DNA from: an uncultured Chlorobiaceae bacterium
GTDB lineage: Bacteria; Bacteroidota; Chlorobiia; Chlorobiales; Chlorobiaceae
Assembly: GCA_903882665.1 (NCBI GenBank)
Contig: CAIRXW010000057.1
Location: forward strand, 1 to 59,606
DNA: 59,606 nucleotides
Direction: 5' to 3'
Shown: positions 5,201-59,606 of the stretch, one piece after another
How positions within the stretch are numbered: the first letter of the stretch is position 1
Layout of the letters: each line of letters starts with the position of its first letter
The notes under the pieces: model-generated
What the model was told of the DNA's origin: nothing
The model's database searches: none
What the model saw: only the letters and a program-made list of their open reading frames with translations
Made by a program: the position numbers and the translations under genes

Positions 5201-5807
5201 CGGATTTTATTTGAGCCATCATCCGCTTTCGCCCTACCGTCGCGACTGGCAGGCTTTTGCGACGCTTCAGCTTCACGCAAAAGAGGTCGTTGCGGCAAAA
5301 CAGTACAAGGTGATCGGTCTTGTCGTATCGGTGAAACCCTATCAGGACCGGAAAGGCAAGCAGATGCTTTTTGGCTCTATTGAGGACTTTACTGGCAAGG
5401 CTGATTTTACCGTTTTTGCCAGTCTTTATGAGCAGTACGGTCATCTTATCAAACCCGAAGAGGTGTTGATGCTGGTTGCTGAAGGAGAGGTGAGCGGCGG
5501 TATGCTCAAACTGCTTGTCAGGGAGATTATTCCGATAAAAAAGGTGCGGCACGCTCTTGTTAAAAAAATTATTTTGAAAGTAGATGCCGATGATCAGATG
5601 CAGATGGAAAAGCTCGTTCAGGTCAAAAAGATATTTGATGCGAACAAGGGTGGAACGCCGGTCGAGTTTGAGGTGAAAGCGCAGTCGGGTGAAAATATTG
5701 AAACCATCACCCTCTTTGCCCGCAGTACCCCCATTGATCCGGCGGAGAGCACTATTGAAAAGCTTGAGGAGCTCCTTGGCCCCGACAATGTGCGGATTTC
5801 CGGGTAG
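2238..5807 (+). CDS. dnaE: DNA polymerase III alpha subunit
   Basis: The replicative C-family polymerase catalytic subunit, 1189 residues (E. coli DnaE is 1160). The N-terminal PHP domain begins with HLHAHTHYS at residues 5-13. The polymerase core contains PDIDIDF at residues 400-406, holding two of the catalytic aspartates, followed by the palm region with HAGAVVI. Finger-region blocks such as MSALYRPGAL and GYGFNKSHSAAYG are present. A C-terminal OB-fold region lies near residue 1030 (VIGLVVSVK). An acidic insertion of roughly 30 residues around position 540, between QVPLYVSNK and QVVTQFD, is longer than in E. coli. The ATG at 2238 directly gives the canonical N-terminus. Confidence 0.98.
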   Translation: MDFIHLHAHTHYSMQSSPIFPDEIFSAAVKFGMKSIAVTDYCAMFNMPELFSEAKHAGVKLIIGSELLLLETDAHQHSRIPASSSLVLLVQNDAGYRNLCILLSRAAKEGFVHGMPHIESRLLESCHEGLVCLSAYSSGRIGRALLAGAIDEAETFTAYYQEIFGENFYLELQRHNTPFDDKLNEQTIALAEKFSVELVATNNVHYLERKDAGCYRAMVANRTKEKLSNQNLLALAGSDHYLKSSVEMGALFSDEHRELSNTVLIAEKCTYSFSNKEPILPHFPLPAGFDNEFAYLRHLTWEGAKEKYADSEADGISAEDVRARIELELGVIEKMGFSSYFLIVSDLIAASRRLGYSVGPGRGSAAGSIVAYLTGITRIDPLKYKLLFERFLNPERSSMPDIDIDFTPVGKQKVLEYTVEKYGTESVAKVIAIGTFAAKAAIRDAGRVLEVPLPLVDKLAKLVPVKPGITLEKALSEAKEMQQFADSTPELRELMRYARALEGRARNVSMHAGAVVITDGRLEEQVPLYVSNKIETEVRKFADEIDLDEPDHVRGKASDAHDEKQVVTQFDKNWIETAGLLKIDYLGLETLAVIDETLKMIKRRHNLDIELEKVPMNDRKTFRIFQEGKMAGIFQFESSGMQSYMTRLQPTQIGDIIAMSALYRPGALNARIDEKRNAVDLFVDRKHGREAIDYMHPMLETILKETYGVIVYQEQVMQISQVMGGFSLAKADNLRKAMGKKKPEIMEKYKADFVQGAVQQGVHDTLATRVFELMAEFAGYGFNKSHSAAYGVLAYWTGYLKAHYTIEFVTAVLNSEIGDIERMKHLTDEAKSFGISTLPPSINKSDALFAVEDVADRSFIRVGLSAIKQVGAAARAVVTSRLRRKRDFVNLFDLAASVDLRVMNRKALECLILAGAFDELDSHRAKLLANVDKAFKFGQMQNRSVTLGQCGFFTAEEGALLEEEHYPEMESAEMMAEAEKLLHEKRLVGFYLSHHPLSPYRRDWQAFATLQLHAKEVVAAKQYKVIGLVVSVKPYQDRKGKQMLFGSIEDFTGKADFTVFASLYEQYGHLIKPEEVLMLVAEGEVSGGMLKLLVREIIPIKKVRHALVKKIILKVDADDQMQMEKLVQVKKIFDANKGGTPVEFEVKAQSGENIETITLFARSTPIDPAESTIEKLEELLGPDNVRISG

Positions 5808-6599: not shown

Positions 6600-6935
6600 A
6601 TGAGTGAAAACTATCTTGCGGCCACGGAGCTGAATTTCAAGGCAGAGATTCTTGATTCAGATAAAGTAGCGCTGGTCGATTTCTGGGCTCCCTGGTGTGG
6701 CCCATGTAAAATACTTGGCCCTGTTATTGAAGAACTTGCTGCTGACTACGCCGGAAAGGCTGTCGTTGCCAAGCTCAATGTTGATGAGAACCCCAGGATT
6801 GCAGCTCAGTATGGTATCAGAAGCATCCCCTCCCTGCTTCTTTTCAAAAATGGTCAGGTTGTCGACCAGATGGTTGGCGCCATACCGAAAAATACGATTG
6901 CAACGAAACTTGACGAGTATATCGGTTCTCTTTAA
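6600..6935 (+). CDS. trxA: Thioredoxin, canonical CGPCK active site
   Basis: A 111-residue thioredoxin with the standard WCGPCK active site and the cis-proline loop (RSIPSLLLFKNGQ). It is the probable main disulfide reductant, recycled by the reductase encoded 24 bases downstream. It has its own promoter-like element at 6489-6536, whereas the paralogue at 5908 does not share that element. The ATG at 6600 matches the N-terminus of the paralogue (MS-x-YL). Confidence 0.96.
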   Translation: MSENYLAATELNFKAEILDSDKVALVDFWAPWCGPCKILGPVIEELAADYAGKAVVAKLNVDENPRIAAQYGIRSIPSLLLFKNGQVVDQMVGAIPKNTIATKLDEYIGSL

Positions 6936-8432: not shown

Positions 8433-11400
8433 ATGGCAAGCTCAACATCGACCTTTACTGCTGGCGGCGGCATGATAACGACTGACTTTGGAGGAGTGGA
8501 AACGGGATATAGTGTCGCCTTGCAGAGTGATGGAAAAATTCTTGTAACGGGCGGTACCATGGATGCCGACGGCTCTGTCCACTCACTTCTTGCACGCTAT
8601 AACGTCGATGGCAGCCTCGATTCAAGCTTTTCAGGTGATGGAAAGGTGATTATTGATTCCGGTCCAGAGTCACTTGGAGTGAGTGTAGCTGTACAAAATG
8701 ACGGCAAAATTCTCGTTTCAGGTGCCATTGATGACGGCAATGCCGGCGGTGATTTTTCCCTGATGCGCTTCAATGCCAATGGTAGCCTCGATACGAGCTT
8801 TTCAGGCGACGGCATCGCAACAACCGATTTTGGCGGTCTTGACGTTGGCTTCAGTGTGGCGACTCAGAGCGATGGCAAGATTATTGTAGCGGGAAACCAC
8901 GATGGTGACTTTGCCCTTGCGCGCTATAACGCCAATGGGAGCTTGGATACGAGCTTTTCCTGAGACGGGAAGGTCATCACAGACTTCGGAGGTTCTGAAG
9001 CGGGCAGCAGCGTTGCTGTTCAGGCTGACGGCAGGATTCTCGTTGCAGGCGTTGCATTGAATGGTAGCAATTGGAACTTCGCTCTTGCGCGCTATAACGC
9101 AAACGGTACTTTCGATACAAGCTTTTCAGGCGACGGGAAGCTCATCACAGACTTTGGCGGTAATCAGACCAATTGCAGCTTGACCCTGCAGAGCGATGGT
9201 AAGATTCTCGTGGCAGGGGGCAGCTATGAAGGCGGCCTCACCTTTGACGGATTCGGTCTGGCTCGCTACAATACCGATGGCACCCTCGATACAAGTTTTG
9301 GCGACGTCGGTACCGTCATCACAGACTTCGGCTCAAACTCTGCTGGACAGAGCGTGAAAGTGCAGGCTGACGGCAAGATTCTTGTTGGTGGCTTCAGTAA
9401 CGGGGATTTTGCCGTGGTGCGTTACAATGCAGATGGAACTCTGGATACCAATTTTTCTGGGGATGGAAAGGTCTTGACAGATTTTGGCGATTTCTAAGGC
9501 ATCAACAGCATCGCGCTTCAGGCCGATGGAAGAATTGTTGCAGTCGGGGGACACGGTGATAATATCCTCTCATCGTATGCTGATATTGCCCTTGCTCGTT
9601 ACAATGTTGACGGCACTCTCGATACCGGCGGTTCCGTCAGCGATACCACACCTCCAACAGTCGTGACCTTCAGCCCGGTGGATGGAGCTACCGGTACCGC
9701 AATCAGCAGCAACATTGTCGTGGGCTTCAGCGAAGCAATCCAGAATGGAAGCGGAACCATTGCCATTCACAGCGATTCAGCAACCGGAACGGTTTTGGAA
9801 AGCTACAACGTAGCAACGAGCGCCAATCTTTCTATTTCGGGCAGTACGCTCACCATTGACCCAACCGTCAATCTGGCAAGTAATACGCATTACTTTGTGA
9901 CGTTCGATGCTGGTTCTGTCAAGGACCTGGCTGGTAACTCCTATGCCGGGACTACCAGCTATGACTTCACTACCGCAAACGGCAGCGGCATGATAACAAC
10001 AGACTTCGGTGGCAACGACTATGGCCTGCATATGACGGTTCAGTCCGATGAGAAGATGCTTGTAGCGGGCCTCAGTAATGGCGACTTTGCCCTTGCACGT
10101 TACAACACCAACGGAAGTCTTGATACCACATTTTCCGTTGATGGCAAGGTAACAACACGTTTCAGTGGCAATGATTTTGTTTTCGGATCGGCGGCGGTGC
10201 AGCCTGACGGCAAAATCCTTGTCTCAGGGGCAAGTAACGGTGACTTTGCCTTGGCACGTTACAACGCTGATGGCAGCCTCGATACAAGTTTTTCCACTGA
10301 CGGAAAGGTGACGATATCCATTGGTATATATAATGACCTTGGTTCTGGTGTAATGGTACTACCTGGAGGCAAAATACTTGAAGTGGGTCTCAGCTACGAT
10401 GCATCCCATAACGGAAACATTGCCTTGGTACGCTATAATGCTGACGGAACTCTCGACACCAGTTTTTCCAGCGACGGTATTGTTACCACTGACTTGGGAC
10501 ATGATGAACAAGTGATGAGAAATGTGGTAGTGCAGAGTGATGGCAAGATAGTTGTGGCAGGTTCAACCTGGCTTGGTGACGGTCACTGCAACTTCTTTCT
10601 GGTTCGTTATAACGGAGACGGTAGCCTTGATACAAGCTTCTCCGGCGATGGTATCGTTACTACGGAGTTCAATTATCGTGATGAAGGGTATAATTTGAAT
10701 TTACAGGCTGATGGCAGGATTCTTGTTTCAGGTTCAAGTAACGGTGATTTTGCTCTTCTGCGTTACAATACCGACGGAAGCCTTGATACAAGCTTTTCAG
10801 GTGACGGCATCGTCACAACGGATTTTGGAGCTACTGACGGTGGCATCGATGTGGCGACGCAGTCCGATGGCAAAATCATTGTTGCGGGCTCAACATCTCA
10901 TCAAAATGTATGGAGTTGGGAGGGAGACACTACGATTCACCTGGTGGAGGGAATCAGTGACTTTGCCTTGGTGCGCTATAATGCTGACGGTTCTCTTGAT
11001 ACCAGCTTTGGCACAGGAGGCAAGGTAACGACTGATTTTGGAGTTACTGATGTTGCTTTAAGTTTTGCTGTTCTTGCTGATGGCAAAATCGTGGTATCGG
11101 GCACAAGTAGCGGCGACTTTGCCCTGGCTCGTTACAACAGTGACGGCAGCCTCGATACGAGCTTCACCGGCATTGCTGACACCACAGTACCGACAGTATC
11201 AGCGTTCAACCCGGCGGATGGGGGCATCGATGTTGCTGTTGGCCATAACATCGTGGTGGACTTCAGCGAAGCCATTCAGAGAGGAAGCGGTACGATAGTG
11301 ATACACAGTGGCTCAGTAACCGGCACACCTATAGCAACCTATGATGTGGCTACAAGCACCAGCCTTTCGGTATCGGGCCATACCCTCACCATCAACCCGA

Positions 11401-12143
11401 CGGCTGATCTTGCCTACGGCACCCACTATTTTGTGACGCTGGATCCCGGTTCAATAAAGGATCTTGCCGGCAACAGTTATGCTGGCACATCTGCCTATGA
11501 CTTTACCACAGAACAACATGTGGTTCTCTCTCCCATTACGGCAGGCTCAATAGAGAGTTGGGAGTATTTTGCCTCCTATGGTGATTTAAGGGGCTGGGCG
11601 CTACTTGATGGCGTGCTGGATGCGAGGGACTCGGCTAATTCTGCCTGGCACTATAACACGTTTGTGGTTCCGGGTATTGAGGCTCGGTCAATTACCTTTG
11701 ACGCATGGGAGTATCTTGCCTCCAACCCTGATTTGATGAATTGGCTTGCTGCCGATGGCCTCACTGATGCTGATGCGGTAACTGCTGCCAAGCATTATAT
11801 CCAGTATGGCTTCAACGAAGGTCGTCTCATTACTTTCGACTCTGCGGCATATCTTGCGGCGAATTCGGATTTACAGCACTGGATAAATGATCTTCTCCAC
11901 CTTAGCGGAGATGCAGCGAATGATTTTGCTGCCCGGCATTACATCTCATTCGGACGTTTTGAGCCTCGTCCAGACGGAAGCCATACTGTTCCTTTGGAGG
12001 TTTCCGCAGCCGCAGTCGACGAAGCATACACCACGTATATCGACTTGAATGGCGGCGAGGTGATCGAAACTCAGGTCGCCCTCAGCGGAATAGTCACACA
12101 ATCGCAGTTGCCCGCTCAGCACGAATTTGCCGGGGCTTTTTGA
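8433..12143 (+). pseudogene. Giant delta-60 beta-propeller / Ig-like protein with two in-frame stops
   Basis: One frame runs 1236 codons, interrupted only by TGA at 8961-8963 and TAA at 9495-9497. Both stops lie inside repeat units and no frame change occurs anywhere. The first 7 repeats (ARYN-x-DGSLDTSFSGDG type, delta-60 family) are followed by an SbsA-like Ig domain beginning TTPPTVVTFSP. Seven more repeats and a second Ig domain follow. Seven repeats suggest one seven-bladed propeller per module. The C-terminal part has three repeats of the EYLASNPDL...HYIQYGFNEGR type. The protein is probably secreted or surface-bound, though no classical signal peptide is visible. It is either a young pseudogene, a sequence with errors, or expressed as its 3' part: 9663-12143 is open for 826 codons. 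Confidence 0.8.
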
Positions 12144-50133: not shown

Positions 50134-51489
50134 ATGCAAGCTGAAAAACACCTTTTCGCCACAACCCCCATCCTCGGCACCATTCTCAGGAAGAAGGCGG
50201 TGGAACGCCTTTTTTCGAGCGGGAGCCGTGAAGCTGCGGTTGCTTTGGCGGGCGCAGTGGAAAAGGCGCATCCGGAAGCAGATGCGATAATTAACCGTCT
50301 TCTGCTTCTGCTGCACAGCAGCCAGCCGGTCATGCACAGCGCTCTGTGGAACTACTGGAAAGCATCCCGCTTCGAAGAGCTGCTGAAAAGGATGCAAGCC
50401 TCTGCAACGCTTATGTCGGATCTGCTGCAGGCACTTGAGGCCATGCCGGAAAACGACTGGGGCAACGGTATGGCGTTCATGCTCTGGAGCATCGTTGACC
50501 GCGATGACATCGCCGACACGATAGATGCGAGCGGTCGCCATGCGCCTGCTCTTGAAATGGACGCCCTTTTCGGGCTTGTGCGAGGCAATCCGGGGCGCTA
50601 CCTCGATCTTGAAGATCCCGATTACTCCATTTTTGAAAAAGCGTGGCTTGCCGCATCCAGCGTCCAGAGACAGCGTATCAGCACAACCGTTCTCAAAAGT
50701 CAGGATCCCCGGCTTGTTGCGGCTTACGATCATGCCGTCAAGGAGGGGCATGACCCGCAACTGGTCATCGAAGCCCTTAAACTCTGCGGAGATCACGACG
50801 CACTGCTTGACCGGCTGCATGGTTTGCCCTTCACCTGTGCGCTCGAGGTTATTGCTTTCTGGGAAGAGAGCGACGGAAGGCCGAAAACTCCCTCAAAAAA
50901 AGTTGTTGTCGAGGCTGTTGTCCCCCTCTATCGTGAACTGGCCGGGCTTCTTCCGCAGTCCCGACCCTCCGGTCCGCCCGGCACCAGAGATATATTCTCT
51001 TTCTGGACGGAACGGTATCGAACAGACGAGCTACTGCAGCAGGATCTTGCAAGCCCGGATCCCTTCAGACGGGCCGGCGCGCTCTTTTCAGGTGCGCAGC
51101 GGGGAGTGATTCCGCGCAACAGGCTGCAGGAGATTTCCCTGAACGGCACGTGGCCTGAAAAGCTCGCGCTTCAGTACCTCTTTACCGTGCCGGATGCAAG
51201 CTCCCGGCAGGAGCATGTCTGCTGGCTCCAGCCACAGAACAATATCGTGGCCGCCATACTGACGACACGCCTGCCCGGTTCGCTTGAAGAGAGCAGTTCG
51301 CTGGCCGGTGGAGTTCATGCTGGTGCTGGAGCGGCTGATCAGTCGGCACAGCTCCAGCGTAAACTCCTGCAGTTACTCGGGGTTCTGCAGGGCTATTTTC
51401 TTCGCGGCCTGATCACCGTTGACAGTAATGACGACGCTACAGAAAAAAATGCCGTGGAGACCGAGGAGCTGACGGATGCAGTATGGTAA
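50134..51489 (+). CDS. Unrecognised alpha-helical protein, first gene of the Hsp70/AAA+/SUMF1 operon
   Basis: 451 residues that I cannot assign to a named family. The sequence is almost entirely amphipathic helices of about 15-20 residues, such as EAAVALAGAVEKAHPEADA and LVIEALKLCGDHDALLDRL. It reads like a HEAT- or TPR-type solenoid, with a Pro-rich break near residue 280 (RPSGPPGTRD). There is no signal peptide or membrane span and no catalytic motif. Codon usage is GC-rich like that of the next three genes. It lies 23 bases before the Hsp70 gene and is probably co-transcribed and a scaffold or adaptor. A 10-base palindrome (TATACGTATA, 50088-50097) lies upstream. Confidence 0.75.
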   Translation: MQAEKHLFATTPILGTILRKKAVERLFSSGSREAAVALAGAVEKAHPEADAIINRLLLLLHSSQPVMHSALWNYWKASRFEELLKRMQASATLMSDLLQALEAMPENDWGNGMAFMLWSIVDRDDIADTIDASGRHAPALEMDALFGLVRGNPGRYLDLEDPDYSIFEKAWLAASSVQRQRISTTVLKSQDPRLVAAYDHAVKEGHDPQLVIEALKLCGDHDALLDRLHGLPFTCALEVIAFWEESDGRPKTPSKKVVVEAVVPLYRELAGLLPQSRPSGPPGTRDIFSFWTERYRTDELLQQDLASPDPFRRAGALFSGAQRGVIPRNRLQEISLNGTWPEKLALQYLFTVPDASSRQEHVCWLQPQNNIVAAILTTRLPGSLEESSSLAGGVHAGAGAADQSAQLQRKLLQLLGVLQGYFLRGLITVDSNDDATEKNAVETEELTDAVW

Positions 51490-51512
51490 ACCCGGGATAA
51501 CCGTTTGAGTAT

Positions 51513-53132
51513 ATGGCTCTCGCTTTTGATTTCGGGACATGCAACAGCGTGGTCGCACGCTGGAACGAAGCCCTGAACGACATAGAGACTCCCGACCTGC
51601 CCAACCTCGGCATCCTCTACCCGCAGCCGGGATCGGAGCCTGCGCGGGTCATTCCCTCCGTCATTCATTTCGCCGTGGAGAGCACCCTCCTTGTCGGCAG
51701 CCAGGTTGACGCAGCAAGAGTAGTCAATCATCCGGGAACATTCAGATGGCTGAAAATGGATATGCTTCGCAACGGCGGAGCCAATCGCGGGCGGCGCGTC
51801 AATGGCAGGGTTATTTATCCCCGCCATGCAGCAGACGAACTCGTCGATCGCATTCTGATGTTTGTGCGCGGCTATTTCGGCGACATCGACGAGGAAATCG
51901 TACTGACCGTCCCGGTCGAAGCCTTCGATCACTATATCGACTGGCTTCGTGAAGCGGCGATAAAACGCTTTCCGGGAGGGATCACCTTCATCGACGAAGC
52001 AACCGCCTGTATGCTTGGTTACATCGATAAGGTTCTCGACCGCGAACCCTACTGCATCGTGGATTTCGGCGGAGGCACTCTCGATGTTTCGGTCGTTCGT
52101 ACTGATCTGCTGCGTGCCGGACATGCGAAATGCCGGATACTGGGCCGGGCGGGCGAGGAGATTGGCGGGATTATGATCGATAACTGGCTGCTGGAACATA
52201 TCCAGGAACAGGAGGAGCTCACAGATGACGATATCGCATCTATCGGCCCGTCACTGCTCGAAGCGATTGAGGGGGCGAAAATTGCCATCTCGAACGGCAG
52301 CGAGCAAGCATCCTTCACCCGCTATAACGATGTTACCGGGCGTCTCGTCGAGGTCACGCTCACTTCCGCCACCCTGAAGGAGGCGCTTGAAAAAAAACGG
52401 GAACCGGGCAGGAACAACCTCTACCAGCACATCATCCGCACGCTTGACCGCGCTCTCGATCAGGCACGCGACAGGGCAGGCATCCGCAAGGAGGAGCTCA
52501 AGGGGATTTTTCTTGTGGGGGGAAGCAGCCTGCTGCCCGGCATCGAAGAGAAAATCCGGGAGTTCTTTCCCCTCAGCGACGTTCATGCCGGTAATCCCTT
52601 CGAAGCCATTGCCAGAGGGGCATGCCGCTACTCCGGCGGCATCTTCGACCAGACGTTGACCCACGATTACTGTCTGCGTAGCTGGAACCGGGAACTTCGT
52701 GATTTCGAACTGGTTCCCGTTGTTCCCCGAGGCACTCCTTACCCGACAGGGAAACCGGTATGCAGCAAATATATCAAGGCAGCTTCGGACAATCAGGATA
52801 CGCTCGGACTGGTGATTTATGAGCGTTCGATGATGAGTCGCCCGCTGATCACCTATGTCAACGGGGCCGACGGGCTCCGTCCGGTACGGGAAGGGGAGCG
52901 GGAGGAGAGTCGGCATAAGCCCCTCAATCCCGAAGACAGCGAGTTCATCCATGCCGTCCCGCCATGCCGTTCGGGCGAGCGGCGCTTCATCGCAGGATTC
53001 GGTGTAGACAGCAACCGCCGCCTCACGCTCTGGCTGCGGGATACGGAGGAGAACAATAGTTCCTACATTCTGTTACGCGACGGCTCGCGACTTCCGTTGC
53101 CGGTGAGCGATCTGCCGGTAGTGAAACTCTGA
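51513..53132 (+). CDS. Hsp70-family ATPase with divergent C-terminus
   Basis: 539 residues with a complete actin-like nucleotide-binding domain: phosphate-1 FDFGTCNS at residues 5-12, connect-1 IDEATACMLGY, phosphate-2 IVDFGGGTLDVSVV from residue 182, and the adenosine motif GIFLVGGSSLLPG from residue 331. The remaining 150 or so residues do not show a DnaK substrate-binding domain, and no EEVD-like tail is present. This places it among the atypical Hsp70s found in bacterial accessory operons. It lies between the helical protein and the AAA+ gene, so a mechanical role with those partners is inferred. Confidence 0.88.
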   Translation: MALAFDFGTCNSVVARWNEALNDIETPDLPNLGILYPQPGSEPARVIPSVIHFAVESTLLVGSQVDAARVVNHPGTFRWLKMDMLRNGGANRGRRVNGRVIYPRHAADELVDRILMFVRGYFGDIDEEIVLTVPVEAFDHYIDWLREAAIKRFPGGITFIDEATACMLGYIDKVLDREPYCIVDFGGGTLDVSVVRTDLLRAGHAKCRILGRAGEEIGGIMIDNWLLEHIQEQEELTDDDIASIGPSLLEAIEGAKIAISNGSEQASFTRYNDVTGRLVEVTLTSATLKEALEKKREPGRNNLYQHIIRTLDRALDQARDRAGIRKEELKGIFLVGGSSLLPGIEEKIREFFPLSDVHAGNPFEAIARGACRYSGGIFDQTLTHDYCLRSWNRELRDFELVPVVPRGTPYPTGKPVCSKYIKAASDNQDTLGLVIYERSMMSRPLITYVNGADGLRPVREGEREESRHKPLNPEDSEFIHAVPPCRSGERRFIAGFGVDSNRRLTLWLRDTEENNSSYILLRDGSRLPLPVSDLPVVKL

Positions 53133-53208
53133 TAGACAGCTCACTCGAACCGCTCATGACAATTTTAAGAGATGTCCTGATGGCTAAACAAGAAAAACTT
53201 AACACAGC

Positions 53209-54741
53209 ATGGCCTGGCTCGACGAACTCAAACTGAATGTTGACGCGCGGGTAGCAGTCATACACCTGGCCACAATCGATGAAGAGGACGCCATGCGCAC
53301 GCTTTCCGGCTGGTCGCAATCGAGCGAGTGGCCTGAAGGCATGGGGCTCATCACCTGGGATATCGGCGACCAGTTCCGGCACCTGCGCGAGCCCGCGGTA
53401 ACCTTCAGCAAACTGGCGGCAACTCCGGAAACCGTGCTCGACATCATCGACGACTACAAGGGCTCCGCAACATTCGTGCTCAAAGACTTTCACCATTTCT
53501 GGGAACACAACCGCAAGGTTTCGCGCATGTTGCGGAACCTCGCATCGCGTCTTCCTTTCCGCAACGAAACGGTGAACATCATCATCACCAGCTCCCAGTT
53601 TGCGCTTCCCGTCGAACTCTGTCACGACATTCCAACCATCGATGTGGGAAAGCCCGACGGCAAACAGATAGTGGAACTGCTCGATCGGGAAACCCGCTCG
53701 ACGCGGGCGCTCGATAACGCCACGCACGGCTTGCGCGAACGTCTGGTCGAAAGCGCGCTCGGTCTTTCCATCGTCGAAGCGGGAAGGGCCTTTCGCAAAG
53801 CCATCGTGGTTGCCGGAGGCTATGGGCTCGACGAACGGAGCGTCCGGCAGGTGCTGAACGAAAAACGCCACATCATCCGTGAAAGCGGCGCTCTCGAACT
53901 ATACCCCTATACCGGCTCGATGAACAACGTCGGCGGACTTGGCGCTCTGAAGGGGTGGCTCGACGAGCGCCAGGAAGCGTTCAGCCAGGATGCACGAGAG
54001 TATGGCCTAAGCATGCCCAAAGGGGTGGCTCTCATCGGGATTCCCGGAACCGGAAAAAGCCTCTGTGCAAAAGTAACCGCAGGCCACTGGGGGATGACGC
54101 TGCTGAGAATGGATGTCGGCGCCATCTTCAGCGGCCTGCTCGGGTCGAGCGAACAGAACATTCGCGAAGCCATCCGCATTGCCGAGGTCATAGCCCCCTG
54201 CGTGCTCTGGGTTGACGAGATCGAAAAAGCCTTTGCCGGCTCCATGGGCGACAGCGGCACGGCAAGCCGGGTCTTTGCCACCTTTCTGACCTGGATGCAG
54301 GAAAAAACCGCCCCGGTATTCGTTTTCGCCACCGCCAACAACGTTCGGCGCCTTCCCCCCGAACTCCTGCGCAAAGGCCGTTTTGACGAAGTCTTTTTCC
54401 TCGATCTTCCCACCCACTGCGAGCGGATAAAAATACTCGAAGTCCATCTCAGGGAGCGTGGTTATACCATGCTCTCGCAGCGGTTCAACCTTGGCGCCGT
54501 CGCATCGGCAACAGAGGGGTTCGTCGGTGCGGAGTTGCAGGCGCTGGTTAACGATGCCATGTTTCCCGCATTCCGCGACAACCGCCGGGAACTGGAAACA
54601 GAGGATATGCTCAACGCTGCCGGAGAGATGGTTCCCCTTTCTGCATCTCATCAGGAGCATATCGAACAGTTGAGGACGATGGTCGGAAACGGACAGGCGC
54701 GCAACGCCTCCGACGACCGGAATGCTTTGGCTGCGTCATAG
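53209..54741 (+). CDS. Ycf46-like AAA+ ATPase
   Basis: 510 residues. The first 230 form a degenerate AAA-like N-terminal region (LITWDIGDQFRHL and IIDDYKGSATFVLKDF). A canonical AAA+ module follows, with Walker A GIPGTGKS at residues 277-284, Walker B LWVDEIEKAF with Asp 336 and Glu 337, and the second-region LRKGRFDEVF with arginine finger. This order and the VALIGIPGTGKSLCAK block match Ycf46 of cyanobacteria and plastids. Such proteins usually form hexameric remodelling rings. It follows the Hsp70 gene by 76 bases on the same strand. Confidence 0.88.
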   Translation: MAWLDELKLNVDARVAVIHLATIDEEDAMRTLSGWSQSSEWPEGMGLITWDIGDQFRHLREPAVTFSKLAATPETVLDIIDDYKGSATFVLKDFHHFWEHNRKVSRMLRNLASRLPFRNETVNIIITSSQFALPVELCHDIPTIDVGKPDGKQIVELLDRETRSTRALDNATHGLRERLVESALGLSIVEAGRAFRKAIVVAGGYGLDERSVRQVLNEKRHIIRESGALELYPYTGSMNNVGGLGALKGWLDERQEAFSQDAREYGLSMPKGVALIGIPGTGKSLCAKVTAGHWGMTLLRMDVGAIFSGLLGSSEQNIREAIRIAEVIAPCVLWVDEIEKAFAGSMGDSGTASRVFATFLTWMQEKTAPVFVFATANNVRRLPPELLRKGRFDEVFFLDLPTHCERIKILEVHLRERGYTMLSQRFNLGAVASATEGFVGAELQALVNDAMFPAFRDNRRELETEDMLNAAGEMVPLSASHQEHIEQLRTMVGNGQARNASDDRNALAAS

Positions 54742-54764
54742 AAAACTGGAGAAAACAGGGCACA

Positions 54765-55562
54765 ATGAAAACACCAACATATAACGAAATCCTTACCGAA
54801 CTCAGAAGACTCGCGCTCTGTCCTTCCGGCGGCAAGCTGCCTCCGGTCATCGTCAACGAGCGTGACGGCTCCCCGATGGTGCTTGTTCCCGCAGGCAGTT
54901 TCACCATGGGAGACGGCCTCGACAAAGAGAGCCCGCAGCGCACCGTCTCTCTGGACGCATTCTACATTTCGGTATATGCCGTCACCAATCGCCAGTACCG
55001 GGCTTTCATACAGGCTACGGGCCATCGGCCTCCCAACATCGGCGCAAGGATAGATTCGCTTTCAGTCTGGCACGAAGATGGCTGTCCCGAAGAGTTCGAC
55101 GATTACCCGGTCGTGCTCATCAACTGGGAGGATGCAGAAGCCTACGCCCGGTGGGCAGGTTGCCGTTTGCCCACGGAAGCCGAGTGGGAAAAGGCGGCAC
55201 GCGGGCCGGAAGGATATATTTACCCTTGGGGAGACCGGTGGGATGAAAACAATTGCCGGAACCGTAACAACCGGGGAGCGGATTCGGTCGCCCCGGTGTA
55301 CGCCTATCCCGAAGGTGTCTCCGGCTACGGAACCTGGAACCAGAGCGGCAACGTCATGGAGTGGTGCAGCGTATGGCACGACGAAACCGATTCCGCAAGC
55401 GCTTCATCCGGCGAAGAGTCACTCCGCCAGGAGCGTGGCGGATGCTGGCGTTACCCCGACAAATTCGCCTTCCGCTGTTCGCAACGCACGTTCGTTGTTT
55501 CCAAAGCGGTCAACGATTTCCGGGGATTCCGGCTGGTGTTGCCGGTGGAGTCTGGCTCATAA
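54765..55562 (+). CDS. SUMF1/FGE-fold protein lacking catalytic cysteines
   Basis: 265 residues with a complete formylglycine-generating-enzyme (C-type-lectin) fold: MVLVPAGSFTMGD near residue 38, NRQYRAFIQATGHR, RLPTEAEWEKAARG, WNQSGNVMEW and the closing FRGFRLVLPV. In genuine FGE the catalytic cysteines lie in the GGSxxCxxxxC segment. Here the aligned stretch GGCWRYPDKFAFRC (residues 225-238) has Tyr 230 and Ala 235 at those places by eye, so enzyme activity is unlikely. A ligand-binding or recognition role fits better. It follows the AAA+ gene by 23 bases, and a truncated second copy lies at 58360. Confidence 0.88.
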   Translation: MKTPTYNEILTELRRLALCPSGGKLPPVIVNERDGSPMVLVPAGSFTMGDGLDKESPQRTVSLDAFYISVYAVTNRQYRAFIQATGHRPPNIGARIDSLSVWHEDGCPEEFDDYPVVLINWEDAEAYARWAGCRLPTEAEWEKAARGPEGYIYPWGDRWDENNCRNRNNRGADSVAPVYAYPEGVSGYGTWNQSGNVMEWCSVWHDETDSASASSGEESLRQERGGCWRYPDKFAFRCSQRTFVVSKAVNDFRGFRLVLPVESGS

Positions 55563-58208: not shown

Positions 58209-58385
58209 ATGCCACGAGGAGCGAGACTTGACAAACAGGGAACGCTGCATCATGTAATGGTGCGGGGAATCGAACAGGGAAGTATCGATCGGGACGATAG
58301 CGACAGAGAGGAATTTCTTCGCTGCTACCTTCCGTGCCATGGCCCTGAAGCCGCACACGAGGGGAGACCGGTGGGACGAAAATAA
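58209..58385 (+). pseudogene. RAYT (REP-associated IS200-like) transposase remnant
   Basis: The translation MPRGARLDKQGTLHHVMVRG, followed by DRDDSDREEFL, is the highly characteristic N-terminus of RAYT/Y1 transposases. Similarity stops around residue 40, and the frame ends 58 codons in, just beyond a junction with SUMF1-like DNA. The HUH and catalytic tyrosine regions are missing, so it cannot be active. It marks past mobile-element activity at the breakpoint. Confidence 0.82.
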
Positions 58386-58737
58386 CTGCCGGAACCGGAA
58401 CAACCGGGGAGCGGATTCGGTCGCCCCGGTGTACGCCTATCCCGAAGGTGTCTCCGGCTACGGAACCTGGAACCAGAGTGGTAACGTCATGGAGTGGTGT
58501 TCCGTCTGGCACGAAGAAACGGATTCAGCAAACACCGTCTCCGGTGAAGAAACTCTCCGCCAGGAACGGGGCGGGTGCTGGCGTTATCCCGACAAGTTCG
58601 CTTTCCGCTCTTCGCAGCGCTCGTTTGTGGTTTCCAAAGCGGTTAACGATTTCCGTGGTTTCCGACTCGTATTGCCGGTGCATCTCCCGGTTCCCGTGCA
58701 GGAGACTTTCGTACATGCCAAGAGAAACGGATCGTGA
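58360..58737 (+). pseudogene. 5'-truncated second copy of the SUMF1-like gene
   Basis: From 58360 the DNA matches 55230-55560 closely; the frame (open from an ATG at 58339) reads GDRWDENNCRNRNNRGAD onward and closes with FRGFRLVLPV plus a different tail. About 110 residues, only the C-terminal lectin-fold part, are present. Most differences from the full copy are synonymous, so the parent was under selection before truncation. The aligned Cys 238 of the full copy is Ser here. It is fused out of frame to the RAYT remnant. Confidence 0.8.
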
Positions 58738-58902: not shown

Positions 58903-59606
58903 ATGATTCAGACCAGCAAAATAAATTACCGGGGCGAGGATAGGCTGAAACTCGTGTTCGCCTATAATGACCTCATTATAAATAAGATAAGACATATTGA
59001 AGGCGCTGCCTGGAGCAAGACACTCAGAGCTTGGCATATCCCGTTCACCGAGGAAGCTTTTGGCGAGTTTAAGAAGCTTTTTCCTGATATAGTCCTACCA
59101 GATACTACAGGTTCAGCAAACATGTCAGGTACCGAAAAGCTAACGGAAGCTACCAATGAACCACCGGTGCCATCATCTTCGGCAAAGGCGCAATCTGAAC
59201 TGAAAACTGCGGCAAAAACAAATCTACAAAACGTTACGCAACACAACGGAATCGCTATCGAAATATCCCCGAAACAAATTACCGTTAAAATGCCTAAGAA
59301 TGAGACGGATATACAGTTCATCCGTACCTTCAATTATGTGAGGTGGAACAGCAATAAATTTTGCTGGGTCATACCGAACTACGGTAAAAATATCGACTTG
59401 TTAAAAAATTACTTTGGTCAGCGTATCATAAATATAAAAACCGTAATTGCGCTACCGCAAAATCCGACATTGAACTACGCGGCAACTGAAGTTATTACCG
59501 ATTTACCGTTGTTGGACGAAGTCAACCATGATGAGATTGCCGCCTTCAAGCAGTGGATGGAGCACAAGCGATACAGCGAATCTACGATAAAGACCTATAC
59601 ACAAGC
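58903..59606 (+). CDS. Tyrosine recombinase/integrase-like protein, 3'-partial
   Basis: 235 codons visible, open to the window end. GGAAGGA at 58885-58891 gives a strong ribosome binding site. The N-terminus has two similar modules of about 55 residues: IRHIEGAAWSKTLRAWHIPF, and later FNYVRWNSNKFCWVIPNY, resembling the short HARP-like arm domains placed in front of Bacteroidetes/Chlorobi XerD-type recombinases. The last visible part, FKQWMEHKRYSESTIKTYTQ, is the start of the SAM-like core-binding domain of tyrosine recombinases. The catalytic domain would lie beyond the window. Confidence 0.75.
   Translation, partial: MIQTSKINYRGEDRLKLVFAYNDLIINKIRHIEGAAWSKTLRAWHIPFTEEAFGEFKKLFPDIVLPDTTGSANMSGTEKLTEATNEPPVPSSSAKAQSELKTAAKTNLQNVTQHNGIAIEISPKQITVKMPKNETDIQFIRTFNYVRWNSNKFCWVIPNYGKNIDLLKNYFGQRIINIKTVIALPQNPTLNYAATEVITDLPLLDEVNHDEIAAFKQWMEHKRYSESTIKTYTQ

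Follow-up and report, generated by a model that had tools for sequence, protein, structure and literature searches.

A conserved Chlorobiaceae operon encoding a HEAT-type adaptor, a divergent Hsp70, a p97-like double AAA+ protein and an FGE-fold protein: a candidate protein-remodeling system

Introduction

Hsp70 chaperones, AAA+ motors and formylglycine-generating enzyme (FGE) folds meet in a few described systems. In the DnaK-GrpE-ClpB bi-chaperone disaggregase an Hsp70 and its exchange factor act together with an AAA+ threading motor, and Cdc48/p97 combines an N-domain with tandem D1 and D2 AAA+ domains. Some of the chaperone- and GTPase-centered conflict systems reported by Kaur et al., 2020 (PMC7159879), in which Ycf46 goes unmentioned, contain Hsp70 together with GrpE, and an FGS/FGE fold is found in their cyanobacterial MoxR-vWA systems. 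The AAA+ protein Ycf46 (Slr0374) of Synechocystis is the product of a stress-responsive operon that also includes slr0373 and slr0376, and it influences the use of carbon (PMC7496141); the genes for DUF1257 (Ycf35) and DUF2997 adjoin a ferredoxin gene in the same organism (PMC4284462). Here we describe a four-gene operon (positions 50134-55562, + strand) in a DNA stretch of 59,606 nucleotides from an uncultured Chlorobiaceae bacterium (GenBank assembly GCA_903882665.1, contig CAIRXW010000057.1, positions 1 to 59,606; hereinafter the window), whose products are a HEAT-type adaptor, a divergent Hsp70, a p97-like double AAA+ protein and a protein with an FGE fold. We are somewhat inclined to read this operon, from its sequences and predicted structures, as specifying a dedicated, target-specific Hsp70/unfoldase protein-remodeling machine.

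The locus shares with the DnaK-GrpE-ClpB system the pairing of an Hsp70 with an AAA+ protein, but its AAA+ component is of the classical Cdc48/p97 type (AAA + AAA_lid_3) rather than ClpB/Hsp100, its Hsp70 is distinct from DnaK, the operon encodes no J-domain protein, and a putative dedicated reader and an adaptor are added. With Cdc48/p97 it shares the D1/D2 tandem, but both the N-domain and the D1 Walker A motif are missing. Unlike the systems of Kaur et al., 2020, the operon has no GTPase, tubulin, MoxR or vWA gene. The preliminary description of this DNA, made from its letters, had called the third gene product Ycf46-like, the name used here for its AAA+ type; slr0374 itself is not accompanied by Hsp70, HEAT or FGE genes.

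Organization of the operon and its protein components

The four open reading frames (ORFs) are codirectional, separated by 23, 76 and 23 bp, and each has a GC content of 57-59%, compared with 51% for the preceding gene and 31% for the stretch that follows; the value at 52441-52500, inside gene 2, is 66.7%. The arrangement and the GC-rich stretch had been reported correctly in the preliminary description, whose account of the composition, viz., a helical scaffold, an atypical Hsp70, an AAA+ protein and a catalytically dead SUMF1 fold, is likewise borne out by Pfam matches, alignments and modeling. Pfam recovers Hsp70 in gene 2, AAA followed by AAA_lid_3 in gene 3 and FGE-sulfatase in gene 4, and gives no match for gene 1. 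A scan for promoters and terminators yielded no signal exceeding that of shuffled sequences.

Gene 3 (53209..54741, + strand; 510 aa; Pfam AAA 2e-28) is, by its predicted structure, a Cdc48/p97-type double AAA+ protein with one intact ATP site. Its AlphaFold2 (AF2) model, built from 19 sequences (predicted local distance difference test, pLDDT, 83), aligns over its full length with p97 D1+D2 (Z 26.9, 471 residues, root-mean-square deviation 5.2), covering p97 residues 210-771, and p97/Cdc48 is the structure that it resembles most. Since residue 1 of the model aligns with p97 residue 210, a p97-type N-domain is absent. A degenerate D1 (approximately residues 1-225) precedes an active-looking D2 (approximately residues 226-496), and all 19 of the 19 homologues have a single Walker A motif, always in D2 and never in D1, which in the window reads GIPGTGKS (residues 277-284; 54037..54060, + strand).

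The Hsp70 encoded by gene 2 (51513..53132, + strand; 539 aa) retains intact nucleotide-binding motifs (DFGTCN, DFGGGTLD and LVGGSS), but is otherwise strongly divergent: its Pfam Hsp70 match (8e-20) falls far short of the DnaK cut-offs, with 73 bits against the DnaK model compared to a cut-off of 823. Further, the match to the DnaK profile breaks off at about residue 436 of 539, and hence a full helical C-terminal lid cannot be accommodated. In a phylogenetic tree gene 2 belongs to a clade apart from DnaK, which itself forms a long branch.

Profile comparison places gene 1 (50134..51489, + strand; 451 aa) as a HEAT-type adaptor and a member of the HEAT(-WD40) family (hhalign probability 94%, E 1e-7, over 259 columns against the HEAT-WD40 profile). 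Its C-terminus comprises a conserved helix followed by an acidic tail.

Gene 4 (54765..55562, + strand; 265 aa; Pfam FGE-sulfatase 6e-51) has the FGE/SUMF1 version of the C-type-lectin fold. On alignment with solved FGEs, the segment SYLCHDSYC is replaced by CWRYPDKFA with both cysteines gone, so that the FGE catalytic cysteine pair is lost, in agreement with the earlier label of a dead enzyme. The C-terminal region is almost invariant between species. Targets diversified by diversity-generating retroelements (DGRs) with the same FGE/CLec fold have been described (PMC10907252), and the window's genome has such targets on contig C3; such targets contain a variable region that departs from a template repeat at adenine positions, which gene 4 does not. 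Gene 4 was therefore rejected as a DGR target: its C-terminus is almost invariant, and nothing in the window matches the template repeat of C3.

The DGR itself lies at contig C3:44000-56000 (locus L033) and comprises a reverse transcriptase and a template repeat at about 6723-6855 of that locus, with variable regions at 2261-2391 and 8491-8622 of L033 and at 1489-1620 of a further locus, L006, in STAND/NACHT-like FGE proteins. The differences fall nearly all at template adenines (15/15 and 14/15, and 17/17 for a target on contig C6). A second template-repeat-like stretch, 82% identical to the C3 template, occurs between two FGE genes at 5224-5392 of locus L034 (contig C11:20000-29500); an RVT_1 search found no second reverse transcriptase.

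Conservation, copies and ancestral gene content

In a 296-genome sample of the phylum, gene 1 is restricted to Chlorobiaceae, with 21 genomes carrying it, and it has no match on plasmids. The four-gene order is kept in 12 genomes besides that of the window (G209, G280, G114, G094, G225, G067, G248, G145, G060, G153, G117 and G098), and some further copies of the operon end at contig ends. The homologues thus travel together as a conserved unit, which upholds the operon of the preliminary description. All four genes are under purifying selection, with ratios of nonsynonymous to synonymous substitution (dN/dS) of 0.04-0.23; between species these are 0.05-0.11 for the Hsp70 and the AAA+ protein, 0.08-0.13 for the FGE and 0.14-0.23 for gene 1. 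Given the family-wide conservation of order and the low dN/dS, these are genes and not chance ORFs.

The distribution is nonetheless patchy: an intact AAA+ gene is present in no more than 18 of the 86 genomes of the family, and two genomes (G181 and G173) carry decayed copies of the operon. The window's genome has a second, diverged copy at the start of contig C42, which is 92.3% identical to the operon of G280 and 90.7% to that of the window; being nearer to G280, it does not reflect a recent duplication of the window's operon. Together with an FGE remnant downstream of the operon (see below), the two operons imply that at least three copies have existed in this genome. The patchiness, diverged copies, decay and neighboring integrases show that this is an accessory, exchangeable locus, and one that probably has no housekeeping-chaperone role.

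In four outgroup Chlorobiaceae (G060, G153, G117 and G098) genes 1 and 2 are spaced by 560-730 bp, and this space codes for a GrpE-like protein of 170-180 aa. The presence of GrpE in these genomes indicates that the original set comprised the adaptor, GrpE, Hsp70, AAA+ and FGE, and the ancestral operon was likely arranged in that order.

Related loci across bacteria and archaea

The operon extends beyond Chlorobi, with related loci in many phyla. Within Bacteroidota, neither gene 1 nor the Hsp70 was found outside Chlorobiaceae at the thresholds used in samples of 296 and 394 genomes; a WD40-type locus does occur in one named Crocinitomicaceae metagenome-assembled genome (MAG). When 84,980 species genomes were searched with the Hsp70 alignment, members of the clade of gene 2 turned up in Chloroflexi, Cyanobacteria, Melainabacteria, Verrucomicrobia, Planctomycetes, Armatimonadota, Acidobacteria, Myxococcota, Thermodesulfobacteriota, Streptomyces and methanogenic archaea. 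Counting same-strand partners within about 9 kb, with some concealed by contig ends, these loci in other phyla encode a HEAT-WD40 protein (19/26), the AAA protein (15/26), DUF1257 (13/26), a radical-SAM protein (12/26) and GrpE (10/26). By comparison, AAA, GrpE, DUF1257 and radical-SAM neighbors are all absent from each of 48 stand-alone, more distant cyanobacterial Hsp70 loci that this search also returned.

HEAT-WD40 proteins adjoin these Hsp70s in Chloroflexi, Cyanobacteria, Verrucomicrobia, Planctomycetes, Acidobacteria, Myxococcota and methanogens. The resulting unnamed loci (e.g., Pseudanabaena plasmid pPg_01, which has GrpE, Hsp70, DUF1257, DUF2997, AAA and WD40 genes, and those of Anaerolineae, Methanolinea and Verrucomicrobia) share with the window the Hsp70 clade (~30-37% identity), the double-AAA family (43-47%) and a homologous HEAT adaptor, and in part have GrpE. 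They differ in that a beta-propeller is fused to the HEAT protein, often with DUF1257 and radical-SAM genes and mostly without an FGE, whereas in the Chlorobium set the FGE is present and DUF1257 and radical SAM are absent: neither was found in the flanks of the Chlorobi operons, and DUF1257 has no match in the window's genome. The window's operon brings together the clade-specific Hsp70, the double AAA and the HEAT adaptor at a single locus. Most HEAT-WD40 proteins across phyla (loci L073 and L104-L125) have, at or close to their C-terminal end, a conserved tail of the form RFDIEI...GEFDIEIE, which possibly serves one of the motors as a recognition motif.

A close counterpart comes from an Acidobacteria MAG (NC_groundwater_8, locus L122), with HEAT, GrpE, Hsp70, AAA, a short ORF, FGE and radical-SAM genes. 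It shares with the window a HEAT adaptor without a propeller, the Hsp70, the AAA, the FGE and their order, has GrpE as in the outgroup Chlorobiaceae, and differs in the short ORF between AAA and FGE and in the radical-SAM gene after the FGE. Of the FGEs compared, that of L122 comes closest to gene 4 (43% identity), with moderate branch support (80/81). The HEAT protein of this locus, like gene 1, ends in a helix and an acidic tail, a likeness in form.

Relatives of gene 3 also occur on at least 80 IMG/VR viral contigs (L204-L283; 33-44% identity), about one-third of which have DUF1257, DUF2997 or radical-SAM genes near the AAA gene, with no Hsp70, GrpE, HEAT or FGE nearby. The contigs of this third carry a phage-borne AAA-DUF1257-radical-SAM module. 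A viral origin of the full set was rejected, as IMG/VR has no relative of the Hsp70. Another gene 3 relative (39%), adjoining a 4Fe-4S protein gene, lies within a contractile-injection-system cluster on a Treponema succinifaciens plasmid (8064-9488 of locus L076).

A proposed mechanism and the alternatives

In the remodeling machine that we somewhat favor, the dead FGE fold would act as a reader binding one particular protein or ligand, and the HEAT protein would link this reader to the motors. The target would be captured or held by the Hsp70, helped by a dedicated or the housekeeping GrpE, and threaded by the D2 ring of the AAA+ protein, resulting in its unfolding or dissociation. In most relatives the position of the reader would be taken by the WD40 beta-propeller fused to the HEAT protein; as most systems have HEAT joined to the propeller in one protein while HEAT and FGE are separate here, the comparison suggests that genes 1 and 4 cooperate. 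Several points weigh against this proposal. The AF2 model of gene 1 is all-helical but of low confidence (pLDDT 61), and a fold search with it returned nothing significant. The window's operon has no GrpE-like gene, and a dedicated GrpE is missing from its lineage. Cysteine loss in gene 4 leaves other activities possible, and outside Chlorobiaceae the FGE version is known from a single MAG. Moreover, physical interaction has been deduced from gene order and fusion-type comparison, and the case as a whole is built on sequences and models.

More tentatively, the related loci could represent an undescribed bacterial and archaeal class, in which Hsp70/GrpE would feed a p97-like unfoldase with a dead D1, and a swappable WD40 or FGE reader would sit on the HEAT adaptor, making it a prokaryotic counterpart of p97 possibly directed against mobile elements. 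Searches of the open-access literature turned up no description of this gene set, nor of a neighborhood in which DUF1257, DUF2997 or Ycf46 accompanies Hsp70; the nearest accounts, viz., the conflict systems of Kaur et al., 2020, the DGR-linked FGE sensors, Ycf46 and the Synechocystis DUF2997-ycf35-ferredoxin cluster, all differ in composition. To this extent the preliminary remark that no described system could be recognized holds, and the cross-phylum class as a whole stands a reasonable chance of being new. If these proposals are correct, a bacterial p97/Cdc48-like unfoldase would be linked to an Hsp70 and an exchange factor of its own, with modular readers; p97-type target choice would become accessible in a set of about five genes, and Ycf46-like AAA+ proteins, frequent on plasmids and in phages, would acquire a testable mechanism.

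Any particular biological role is less probable than the machine-level interpretation. A chaperone-centered anti-phage or conflict system, with the FGE or propeller sensing an invader component and the Hsp70/AAA+ pair setting the threshold of the response or dismantling an invader complex, is possible though on balance unlikely. It would fit the presence of the locus in 18/86 genomes, the two diverged copies and a remnant in one genome, the decay in two others, and the integrase downstream of the operon in several genomes. FGE folds and Hsp70/GrpE are also known from predicted conflict systems (PMC7159879, PMC10907252). The flanks of the G280 operon contain GmrSD_N + HEPN + ThsB-TIR, a type III methylase and HEC-01, and a PDC-S06/PrrC-like ATPase gene lies near the operon of G067; however, when 58 ORFs drawn from nine randomly chosen stretches of related genomes served as controls, they hit 245 PADLOC families as against 125 for the operon flanks. 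As controls matched at least as many families, enrichment in defense genes is not shown and the idea of a defense island is not upheld. Thus, while the related sets sought outside Chlorobi were found, an excess of defense genes near the copies over controls was not, and the defense role raised in the preliminary description goes unsupported. No effector is recognizable within the operon, and there is no full-length PADLOC 2.0 match, only generic partial AAA similarity to IetA (at most 77 bits). Further, the FGE shows a strong conservation that would not be looked for in a diversifying sensor, and it is no hypervariable DGR target.

Less probable still is an accessory chaperone acting in the quality control or assembly of a single endogenous complex, e.g., of redox or carbon-fixation function, by comparison with Ycf46 and CO2 use in Synechocystis. 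The very low dN/dS of the Hsp70 and AAA+ genes, the stress-responsive Ycf46 operon with its effect on carbon use, the DUF1257 and DUF2997 genes beside ferredoxin and the radical-SAM/4Fe-4S protein in many relatives would agree with such a role. However, the operon is missing from most Chlorobiaceae and is therefore unnecessary for core photosynthesis, its relatives are present in methanogens and heterotrophs, and the window's genome has no DUF1257 match. Finally, despite the insertion-sequence (IS) remnants, truncated FGE copy and recombinase nearby, it is very improbable that mobile-element traffic merely assembled unrelated genes without joint function, given the order conserved in 12 further genomes, the purifying selection on all four genes and the co-occurrence of homologous Hsp70, AAA and HEAT genes in many phyla.

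Neighborhood of the operon and other features of the window

A truncated copy of gene 4 lies downstream at 58361..58680 (+ strand; 87.5% DNA identity to 55228-55547) and is followed by the 5' part of a tyrosine recombinase/integrase gene (58903..59606, + strand) that is cut by the contig end. The preliminary description had placed the operon beside a recombinase and mobile debris: the debris is indeed near, but the recombinase does not adjoin the operon, as it starts ~3.3 kb downstream, beyond an AT-rich stretch and the truncated FGE copy. In G280 the operon is immediately followed by a full-length homologue of this recombinase (Pfam Phage_integrase 1.9e-38). By eye, the start of an IS200/REP-type transposase (MPRGARLDKQGTLHHVMVRG) at 58210-58345 leads into the truncated FGE copy, and the arrangement suggests that a mobile-element event produced the remnant. 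Elsewhere in the window, internal repeats of 67-80% identity occur at 8700-11500, and the ORF at 9663-12140 resembles, by eye, a repetitive Ig-like surface protein.

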